Of a DNA stretch of 64,000 bases, positions 17 through 2,215 are shown in pieces; the stretch's first letter is position 1, and the number at the start of each line of letters is the position of its first letter. A program made the position numbers and the translations under genes. This DNA is from Planobacterium oryzisoli. Lineage in GTDB: Bacteria > Bacteroidota > Bacteroidia > Flavobacteriales > Weeksellaceae. The stretch is taken from the NCBI RefSeq assembly GCF_015354315.1, contig NZ_JADKYY010000001.1, positions 186,001 to 250,000 of the forward strand, read 5' to 3'. The notes below the pieces were generated by a model, which worked only from the letters and a program-made list of their open reading frames with translations, did not search any database and had not been told where the DNA came from.

Positions 17-598
17 TTAAATGCTTAGGAAGTTAGAGATGATTTGTTTGCCATGGGGTGTTAAGATGCTTTCCGGATGGTACTGCACGCCATGGACCTG
101 GTAGGTAGTGTGCTCTAGTGACATAATCATCCCTTGGGAATCTACCGAGGTTATACGCAGCTGCTTTGGAAATCCTTCGCGGTTGACAGCCCAGGAATGG
201 TATCTTCCAACCTCGATGCGCTCTGGAAGCCCTTGCAGTAGAGCTGCCTCAGGATAAGTCTGGAGGGCAGTAGTAGCCACGCCATGGTAAATTTGGCTCA
301 AATTGGTAAGAGAGCCTCCAAAGGCCTCGGCAATAGCCTGTTGACCCAAACAGACTCCCAGGATTTTTTTACTTGGTGCATACCGGCGCACCAAGTCCAG
401 AGTGATTCCAGCCTCACTCGGTATGCCGGGGCCTGGAGAGATCACTATACTGGAAAACGCTTCCACTTCGTCCAAAGCGATTTTATCGTTTTTATGCACC
501 TGTACCTGAAAGGGGCAGGAGCGCTCAATCATTTGCACAAGATTGTAGGTAAAACTATCGTAATTATCTAGAACCAGTATTTTATCATTTGTTTTCAT
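17..598 (-). CDS. trpG: Anthranilate synthase glutamine amidotransferase subunit
   Basis: This class I glutamine amidotransferase (193 aa, full length) releases ammonia from glutamine for TrpE in the first committed step of tryptophan synthesis in the cytoplasm. The N-terminus has the family pattern LVLDNYDSFTYNL. The nucleophile elbow is GVCLGQQ with Cys83, and the C-terminal His174 and Glu176 sit in QYHPES, completing the triad. It starts nine bases after the trpE stop, so the two are cotranscribed and share the attenuator upstream of trpE. Flavobacteria often use one such subunit for both anthranilate and p-aminobenzoate synthesis, so a PabA role as well is possible. The TrpG name rests on the operon context. 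Confidence 0.93.
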   Translation of the reverse strand: MKTNDKILVLDNYDSFTYNLVQMIERSCPFQVQVHKNDKIALDEVEAFSSIVISPGPGIPSEAGITLDLVRRYAPSKKILGVCLGQQAIAEAFGGSLTNLSQIYHGVATTALQTYPEAALLQGLPERIEVGRYHSWAVNREGFPKQLRITSVDSQGMIMSLEHTTYQVHGVQYHPESILTPHGKQIISNFLSI

Positions 599-607
599 AG
601 AGGTACA

Positions 608-2026
608 TTATGCTATGGTTTGTGCTTTTATAAGTGCCTGCTTCAGTGCACCGAGTTTATGATCTACTTCTTTTAATTCGTTGTGGGGAACGGAACTTGC
701 AACAATCCCGGCACCAGCCTGGTAGCTCAGGGTGTAGTTCTTACTTAAAAGAGTACGAATCATTATTGCCATATTACAAGTCCCGTCCAGACCCATAAAG
801 CCAATGGCTCCACCGTAGTATTGTCGTGCGGTGGGCTCAAAGCTGTCGATCAGTTCCATGGCTCTGCGTTTGGGCGCTCCCGAGAGCGTACCTTGAGGAA
901 AGGTGCTTGCCAGTACCGCAAAAGCGTTTGCTTCAGGCTCCAGGTCACTCTGTACCTCACTTACCATGTGAATAACATGGGAGAACAAATGGATCTCCTT
1001 GAATTTCGTTACGGTGGTGTTCTTGCCCATTATGCTTAAATCATTGCGCGCTAAATCCACCAGCATCGTGTGCTCGGAATTTTCTTTAGGATCGTCTTTA
1101 AGCGCCCGGGCCAGGTCTAGGTCTTTTTCCGCATCGTGTGTGCGGGAGAATGTGCCTGCAATAGGATGAATGGTGGCCTTGTTGTTTTCAATAAGAAGCT
1201 GGCTCTCTGGGCTTGACCCCATTAAGCGGTAGTCTCCAAAATCAAAATAGAAAAGGTAAGGTGAAGGGTTGATATGACGAAGGGCTCGGTACACGTTGAA
1301 ATCATCTCCCTCGAAGCCCTGGCTAAACTGCCGGGAGAGAACTATCTGAAAGACGTCCCCACGGAAAATATGCTTTTTAGCTGCTTCCACCAGACTGATA
1401 AATGCATCATTGGAGAGATTGGAGCGTTCCTCACCGCGCAACTTAAAGGGAAAAACAGGGGCGTTCTTTTCCTGGATCAACTGTTTGATGAAGTGGCTCT
1501 GGGAAACAAGGCCCGGAAGAGCGTTTTCCAGTAGGAACATCTCATCGTTATGGTGGTTGATTGCAATTACATATTGGTAGAGCCTAAATCGGACTAGTGG
1601 TAGTGCGTCTTTTTCCGCCTTGTCTGCAAACTTCAAACCCTGGAAATCTTGCACAGCATCGTAGGCGATGTACCCAAACAGTCCCTGCGCACGTTTTTCA
1701 ATGGAGCCTTTCTTTGCTTCACTTGGGAAGCACTGCGTAAAGTGGTGTAACAGGGAAGTTATTTCACCTGGTGGCAGTTCCAGTTGCTCAGGCTCCTGTA
1801 GTGGGAACTTGATTTCTGCAAGGCCTTCCGTGGAGATTTCGACCCCTGCGATGGGATTAATGGCAATAAAGGAAAAATTATTCTGTGCGTTCTGGTTTCC
1901 GGCACTTTCTAAAAGTACCGTATCGCGAAATTTATCCCGTATGCGCAGATAAATGCCAATAGGAGTGTACAGGTCGCTAAGTAGCGATGTACTGTGGGTT
2001 TTGAGAGGGTATTTGGTAGTAAACAT
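608..2026 (-). CDS. trpE: Anthranilate synthase component I
   Basis: This 472-aa protein converts chorismate plus ammonia to anthranilate, together with TrpG. The N-terminal half carries the LLES motif (residues 38-41) linked in TrpE proteins to tryptophan feedback inhibition, which separates it from PabB. The C-terminal chorismate-binding domain shows GTFSR, FPQGTLSGAPKRRAMELID and QYYGGAIGF. It is the first structural gene of the operon, 15 bases after the T-tract of an attenuator hairpin and 74 bases after the stop of a leader peptide rich in Trp codons. It is therefore probably controlled both by transcription attenuation and by allosteric inhibition. Length and motifs are complete. Confidence 0.96.
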   Translation of the reverse strand: MFTTKYPLKTHSTSLLSDLYTPIGIYLRIRDKFRDTVLLESAGNQNAQNNFSFIAINPIAGVEISTEGLAEIKFPLQEPEQLELPPGEITSLLHHFTQCFPSEAKKGSIEKRAQGLFGYIAYDAVQDFQGLKFADKAEKDALPLVRFRLYQYVIAINHHNDEMFLLENALPGLVSQSHFIKQLIQEKNAPVFPFKLRGEERSNLSNDAFISLVEAAKKHIFRGDVFQIVLSRQFSQGFEGDDFNVYRALRHINPSPYLFYFDFGDYRLMGSSPESQLLIENNKATIHPIAGTFSRTHDAEKDLDLARALKDDPKENSEHTMLVDLARNDLSIMGKNTTVTKFKEIHLFSHVIHMVSEVQSDLEPEANAFAVLASTFPQGTLSGAPKRRAMELIDSFEPTARQYYGGAIGFMGLDGTCNMAIMIRTLLSKNYTLSYQAGAGIVASSVPHNELKEVDHKLGALKQALIKAQTIA

Positions 2027-2040
2027 AAAAATTGGGGATT

Positions 2041-2078
2041 AAAAAAAGGACTTTGACACACGATGTCAAAGTCCTTTT
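2041..2078 (-). terminator. trp attenuator terminator
   Basis: On the minus strand a perfect 15-bp stem (AAAAGGACTTTGACA at 2078-2064 with its complement at 2058-2044) closes a 5-base loop and ends in a T-tract reaching 2041. It lies between the trp leader peptide and the trpE start. Its 5' arm can instead pair with a segment inside the leader peptide gene (2132-2123), the hallmark of attenuation. Confidence 0.93.
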
Positions 2079-2143
2079 CATTGTAACTGTAAACAAAAGA
2101 TTAAACAATACAAGAATGCTTCAGACTCTGACCTGAGTTTGAA
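2065..2143 (-). promoter_or_regulatory. trp attenuator: alternative antiterminator pairings
   Basis: Read on the minus strand, segment 1 (TTCAAACTC, 2143-2135) follows the Trp codons and can pair with segment 2 (GAGTCTGAA, 2128-2120), 8 of 9 pairs. Segment 2 (GTCAGAGTCT, 2132-2123) can pair with segment 3 (GGACTTTGAC, 2074-2065) over 10 pairs, two of them G-U. Segment 3 is the 5' arm of the terminator. A ribosome stalled on the Trp codons would cover segment 1, free segment 2 to hold segment 3, and let transcription reach trpE. Pairing was worked out by eye. Confidence 0.85.
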
Positions 2144-2169
2144 TGCCACCACCATGTATTGTTTGTCAT
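2101..2169 (-). CDS. trpL: trp operon leader peptide with three tandem Trp codons
   Basis: This is a 22-codon reading frame starting at ATG 2169 and ending at TAA 2103-2101. Residues 6-8 are Trp-Trp-Trp, encoded by TGG TGG TGG at 2154-2146. Three tandem Trp codons are very unlikely by chance in so short a frame directly downstream of a promoter and upstream of trpE. The peptide itself should have no function; its translation senses charged tRNA-Trp. It lies about a dozen bases after the predicted transcription start and just before the mutually exclusive hairpins described for the attenuator. Confidence 0.92.
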   Translation of the reverse strand: MTNNTWWWHSNSGQSLKHSCIV

Positions 2170-2184
2170 TGTTTTCACTGGGAG

Positions 2185-2215
2185 CAAATATAGAAATGTT
2201 TTTAAATTATACAAA
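2185..2215 (-). promoter_or_regulatory. trp operon promoter
   Basis: The minus strand has TTTG at 2215-2212, a 19-base spacer and TATATTTG at 2192-2185. This is a full match to the Bacteroidota TTTG / TAnnTTTG promoter. Predicted start is near 2180, about 10 bases before the trpL ATG. Confidence 0.88.

Follow-up and report, generated by a model that had tools for sequence, protein, structure and literature searches.

The region between positions 2214 and 2041 of the minus strand, ahead of trpEGDCFBA in Planobacterium oryzisoli, is very probably a ribosome-mediated transcription attenuator of that operon and a divergent member of the Bacteroid-trp class. The window (the whole 64,000-nt stretch of DNA that was analysed, on a 337-kb contig designated C1) holds the first two genes of a complete trpE-G-D-C-F-B-A operon that runs from contig position 188026 down to 181649, and lysS lies divergently on the other side. 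The genes of the operon and the parts of its leader, as read from sequence, folds and comparison with relatives, are:

608-2026, minus strand: trpE, first gene of the putatively controlled operon; its best NCBIfam family in a profile search is anthranilate synthase component I (TIGR00564), at 397 bits, below the equivalog cut-off of 517.7
17-598, minus strand: trpG (TIGR00566, above the cut-off in the profile search)
Contig C1 186013-181649, after trpG and past the window edge: trpD, trpC, trpF, trpB and trpA, named from ORF sequence and order only
2212-2214, minus strand: TTG, the -33 element of a Bacteroidota sigma-A promoter (sequence)
2185-2192, minus strand: -7 box TATATTTG (sequence and relatives)
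2101-2169, minus strand: leader ORF from ATG 2169-2167, 22 codons plus TAA (2103-2101), MTNNTWWWHSNSGQSLKHSCIV (sequence)
2101-2178, minus strand: possible full leader ORF from GTG 2178-2176, VKTMTNNTWWWHSNSGQSLKHSCIV, 25 codons plus TAA (GTG in frame and at or near +1)
2146-2154, minus strand: three tandem Trp codons (TGG x3), the presumed ribosome stall site (sequence; conserved in the family)
2135-2146, minus strand: segment 1 (fold)
2118-2132, minus strand: segment 2, of which 2128-2118 pairs with segment 1 and 2132-2123 (GTCAGAGTCT) with segment 3
2065-2074, minus strand: segment 3 (GGACTTTGAC), within the 5′ arm of the terminator (fold and comparison)
2041-2079, minus strand: intrinsic terminator (3:4), 17-bp stem 2079-2063/2059-2043, T run 2047-2041 (fold and sequence)

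A sequence-only reading of this DNA had described a full promoter, a 22-codon leader with TGG TGG TGG and three mutually exclusive pairings before trpE, and each of these elements stands. The promoter combines TTG (2214-2212) with an exact TAnnTTTG (2192-2185) at a spacing of 19 nt, which is that of most relatives having a TTG, and the transcript is predicted to start at about 2180-2178. The leader, as read there, runs from ATG 2169-2167 through the Trp codons at 2154-2146. The pairings had been placed at 2143-2120 (1:2), 2132-2065 (2:3) and 2078-2044 (3:4), right to a few bases: hairpin 1:2 joins 2146-2135 with 2128-2118, and pairing 2:3 joins 2132-2123 with 2074-2065 in 10 continuous pairs. 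An antisense (plus-strand) reading of the terminator was rejected as merely the terminator's own inverted repeat.

These features stand out from their background. At -42.6 kcal/mol, 2170-2038 folds more stably than its shuffles do (-24.5 +/- 3.2; z -5.6), and the complementarity of segment 2 to the terminator arm exceeds that of shuffles (z -3.1, p 0.005). Across the 337-kb contig, the leader is the sole intergenic WWW ORF, and no other TTG-spaced TAnnTTTG box precedes a short ORF containing an amino-acid run.

From this anatomy we infer stalling, termination and release under Trp starvation as follows. A ribosome would start on the leader ORF at or near the 5′ end of the RNA. When Trp-tRNA is scarce, it would stall on the three Trp codons and cover segment 1, segment 2 would pair with segment 3 before segment 4 is made, no terminator would form and the operon would be read. 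When Trp-tRNA is plentiful, the ribosome would reach the stop codon, 1:2 would re-form behind it, and the terminator would form, ending transcription after about 135-140 nt. The leader stop codon at the P. oryzisoli site lies beyond segment 2, so that termination would rely on 1:2 re-forming behind the ribosome.

Folding of the leader, proposed earlier as a check, came out in favour of this scheme, with a ribosome on the Trp codons moving the RNA from 1:2 to 2:3. Specifically, free window RNA grown to segment 3 has P(1:2) 0.97 and P(2:3) 0.02, and P(2:3) is 1.00 in RNA of the same extent once a ribosome, represented by hiding the RNA to 12 nt past the first base of the A-site codon, is placed on Trp codon 1, 2 or 3. 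When the ribosome sits on the stop codon, 1:2 is the structure upstream of it (P 0.96) and the terminator the one downstream. Once segment 4 is included, equilibrium favours the terminator in all of these cases; the switch would therefore have to be kinetic. A kinetic switch is also what the classical attenuation model describes.

Comparison with relatives extends the picture well beyond this genome. The sample comprised 102 trpE upstream regions of the same family, which we take to be Weeksellaceae, judging by the named loci of Epilithonimonas, Kaistella, Chryseobacterium and their kin. A short WW or WWW ORF precedes trpE in 100 of the 102 loci; of the other two, one has a WCW leader (L019), and in the other, a genome of genus g17, Bacteroid-trp is matched some 1.3 kb ahead of trpE. 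Most of the further Bacteroidota loci that were compared also have this leader type in front of trpE, including Chitinophagaceae, Saprospiraceae, Bacteroidales and Flavobacteriaceae. Within the leader the Trp codons are the most conserved portion, and in nearly all main-clade genomes the distance from the first base of Trp codon 1 to the start of segment 2 is 18-22 nt, wherever the stop falls, which would put the start of segment 2 just clear of a ribosome stalled at that codon.

The alignment of trpE upstream regions, likewise suggested in the sequence-only reading as a search for covariation, revealed compensatory changes in the antiterminator. In a common bulged register, 94.5% of cells pair among 22 distinct pairs, a level reached by 0 of 1000 partner shuffles; as these shuffles ignore relatedness, the figure is to be read as support and not as a probability. 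Double changes occur at three antiterminator positions (C-G/T-A/A-T at one, T-A and C-G at the two others), with GTCG/CGAC, GCTG/CAGC and GCAG/CTGC as examples. Projected on the family alignment, the window's own 10-bp register gives 73% pairing and no double changes, because it differs by 1 nt from that of most relatives, which have a bulge. Across 80 sequences, the share of paired cells is 85% for hairpin 1:2 and 87% for the terminator, both well above slid controls. Genera g8, g10, g22 and g28 (for example, L025 and L023) have a WWW leader and a strong terminator; no simple pairing of segment 2 with the terminator arm was found there, so the antiterminator in these genera must be built differently.

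The covariation bears on another explanation, in which a constitutive terminator or a small RNA gene stands before trpE, Trp switching plays no part, and the peptide or short RNA might act in trans. Such action has a precedent in Sinorhizobium meliloti, where the terminated trp leader and the peptide work in trans (PMC7298713); in the family studied here, however, the 2:3 pairing covaries with the terminator arm, though a constitutive terminator would have no use for it, and we consider this explanation very unlikely. A second alternative would leave the Trp codons incidental and assign the terminator to a Trp-sensing protein or to direct tRNA control. TRAP, TrpR or T-box control is known for other trp operons, but searches of the nearly complete genome for TRAP (PF02081), TrpR (PF01371) and T-box (RF00230) found none of the three, the control genomes matching as expected, and the supposedly incidental Trp codons are the part of the leader that is best conserved. 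This second alternative is thus largely refuted, and we give it even less credence than the first. The classical ribosome-stalling model put forward in the sequence-only reading fits the anatomy and is backed by the conserved Trp codons, the fixed geometry, the compensatory changes and the ribosome-masking folds.

The attenuator has several points in common with E. coli trpL, namely tandem Trp codons, segments 1-4, three pairings and a predicted terminated RNA of about 140 nt. It differs in its Bacteroidota promoter, in a probably very short or absent 5′ UTR, in that TrpR was not found and in its stop codon beyond segment 2. In the E. coli trp leader the stop codon is placed differently, not beyond segment 2. 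With ribosome-mediated trp attenuators in general the site shares a short ORF whose tandem regulatory codons are kept in relatives, mutually exclusive 1:2, 2:3 and 3:4 pairings and an intrinsic terminator before trpE.

By descent and position, as judged from sequence, the P. oryzisoli site is a divergent relative of Bacteroid-trp. The RF01692 (Bacteroid-trp) model aligns over its full length (model 1-131) at 2199-2067 with 35.0 bits, below the curated cut-off of 49 bits; a relative of the same genus scores 55.8 bits, above the cut-off, which 26 of 148 family genomes pass. As in Bacteroid-trp, a Trp-rich leader ORF and a hairpin lie upstream of trp genes in a member of the Bacteroidota, and the resemblance extends to the place before the trp operon, the tandem Trp codons of the leader ORF, the long-range hairpin over the ORF and the start of the terminator arm. 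The differences are that the sequence has drifted in this lineage, to 35 bits, and that the RF01692 model as aligned is without the 2:3 antiterminator. The suggestion that such an attenuator is unusual in this phylum did not hold: Bacteroid-trp has been known in Bacteroidetes since 2010 (Weinberg et al.; PMC2864571), a 2019 paper proposed, on the E. coli analogy, that it acts as an attenuator in Flavobacterium psychrophilum (PMC6414381), and the F. psychrophilum transcriptome of 2021 yielded strong hints that leader peptides attenuate amino-acid operons (PMC9723704).

More distinctive is the position at which leader translation appears to start. In 79 genomes, which represent 15 of the 19 genera having the leader, the TAnnTTTG box and the leader start that follows it are 4, 5 or 6 nt apart. 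Of 84 start codons at 4-6 nt, 80 share the frame of the Trp codons with no stop in between, and for 79 of these the distance to the Trp codons is exactly 21, 24 or 27 nt. As exceptions, the gaps are longer in g7 and g10, and most members of g23 have 44 nt. Published box distances (-12 to -5 in F. psychrophilum, PMC9723704; 4-5 nt between box and transcription start in F. johnsoniae, PMC6847099), taken together with this gap, place the leader start no more than 1-2 nt from the 5′ end. From this box-to-start spacing, the leader is probably translated leaderless in most relatives. In S. meliloti trpL (PMC7298713) and in leuL, thrL and metL of Streptomyces lividans (PMC8079986), the leader ORF starts with the very first base or bases of the transcript; these belong to other phyla and differ from the Weeksellaceae case in that the latter is read from spacing and not from mapped 5′ ends. 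In the open-licence papers searched, we found no statement on leaderless leader peptides in Bacteroidota.

In the window itself, the frame is open upstream of ATG 2169 to GTG 2178-2176, which lies 9 nt before the ATG and 6 nt after the -7 box and occupies the place that the leader start codon has in relatives. The GTG is followed by AAA ACA ATG, giving a possible 25-codon peptide VKTMTNNTWWW..., and the same-genus relative reads ATG AAA ACA ATG, where 5 nt separate the box from the first ATG and the peptide is MKTMQNTNWWW... The sequence-only reading had drawn attention to a leader start about 10 nt from the 5′ end; this was a real pointer, although most relatives start nearer still, on the predicted +1 or no more than 1-2 nt from it. 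As to the exact start that we infer for P. oryzisoli, the odds are about even among GTG 2178, ATG 2169 or both.

The same attenuator might be translated from ATG 2169 only, with a 5′ UTR of about 10 nt and the GTG a leftover of an ancestral leaderless start, and we put the chances of this at roughly one half. It draws support from the window's contig, where box-to-ATG gaps, scanned for ATG starts only, form a tight cluster at 4 nt (10 of about 105 boxes) and a broad one at 14-19 nt, the latter including the 15-nt gap of ATG 2169; all 12 contig genes with a start 3-5 nt after the box use ATG, as a scan confined to ATG starts would have it. The context of ATG 2169 is moreover A-rich, like the Kozak-like starts of F. 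johnsoniae (PMC6847099). Against an ATG-only start stand the 79 family genomes with a start 4-6 nt after the box and in frame 21, 24 or 27 nt from the Trp codons, the many family genomes without a second ATG in the leader, one genome (L157) whose only leader start is a GTG at 4 nt, and the alignment of the window peptide read from GTG with that of the same-genus relative.

On balance, we lean towards a leaderless leader gene in most Weeksellaceae, on which a ribosome would load at the first base or no more than 1-2 nt from it and stall about 25 nt later, with GTG as the start codon in the window and in one other lineage. If true, leaderless loading would be built into attenuation, in a phylum without Shine-Dalgarno use. 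The group of 4-nt gaps on the contig suggests that about one in ten promoter-bearing genes of the P. oryzisoli genome is leaderless; in F. psychrophilum, leaderless mRNAs make up 5.5% (PMC9723704).

These observations support the view that Bacteroidota, which initiate without Shine-Dalgarno sequences, time transcription by ribosome stalling. Such timing implies a ribosome close behind the polymerase, at least on the trp leader, and the fixed 4-6 nt from box to start across 15 genera offers a simple system for studying leaderless translation and coupling in Bacteroidota. In several members of g9 (L127, L128 and L185), as well as in L129 and L132, about 48 nt have been inserted between the box and the place where the leader usually starts, which would make the leaderless leader leadered, and an orphan or lost ATG lies beside the box. 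These natural sister species with a leadered leader add to the leaderless test system.

A second attenuator of the ribosome type occurs in the same genome, upstream of hisG (L221, about 1159-1342 on contig C17). Its leader MNNLTALHHHHHLTPKAS contains five His codons, its terminator is AACCGTCTTAG...CTAAGGCGGTTTTTTT, and a matching CTAAGGCG lies inside the leader. Its 5′ UTR is normal, the start falling 21 nt after the box, and a leaderless start as a general habit of leaders in P. oryzisoli was rejected for this reason. A search made for an ilv leader found no ilvD (PF00920) in the genome, which is rated 99.98% complete; an organism without ilvD may have to take up its branched-chain amino acids.

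Loci L028 and L026, and likewise L063, L066, L067 and L069, have two complete Trp attenuators in tandem before trpE, with a first WWW or WLPWW leader and its own terminator followed by a second WWW leader and another terminator. Four Bacteroidota genomes have almost the same first tandem leader, M(Q/K)KLNTIWLPWWGLLT.
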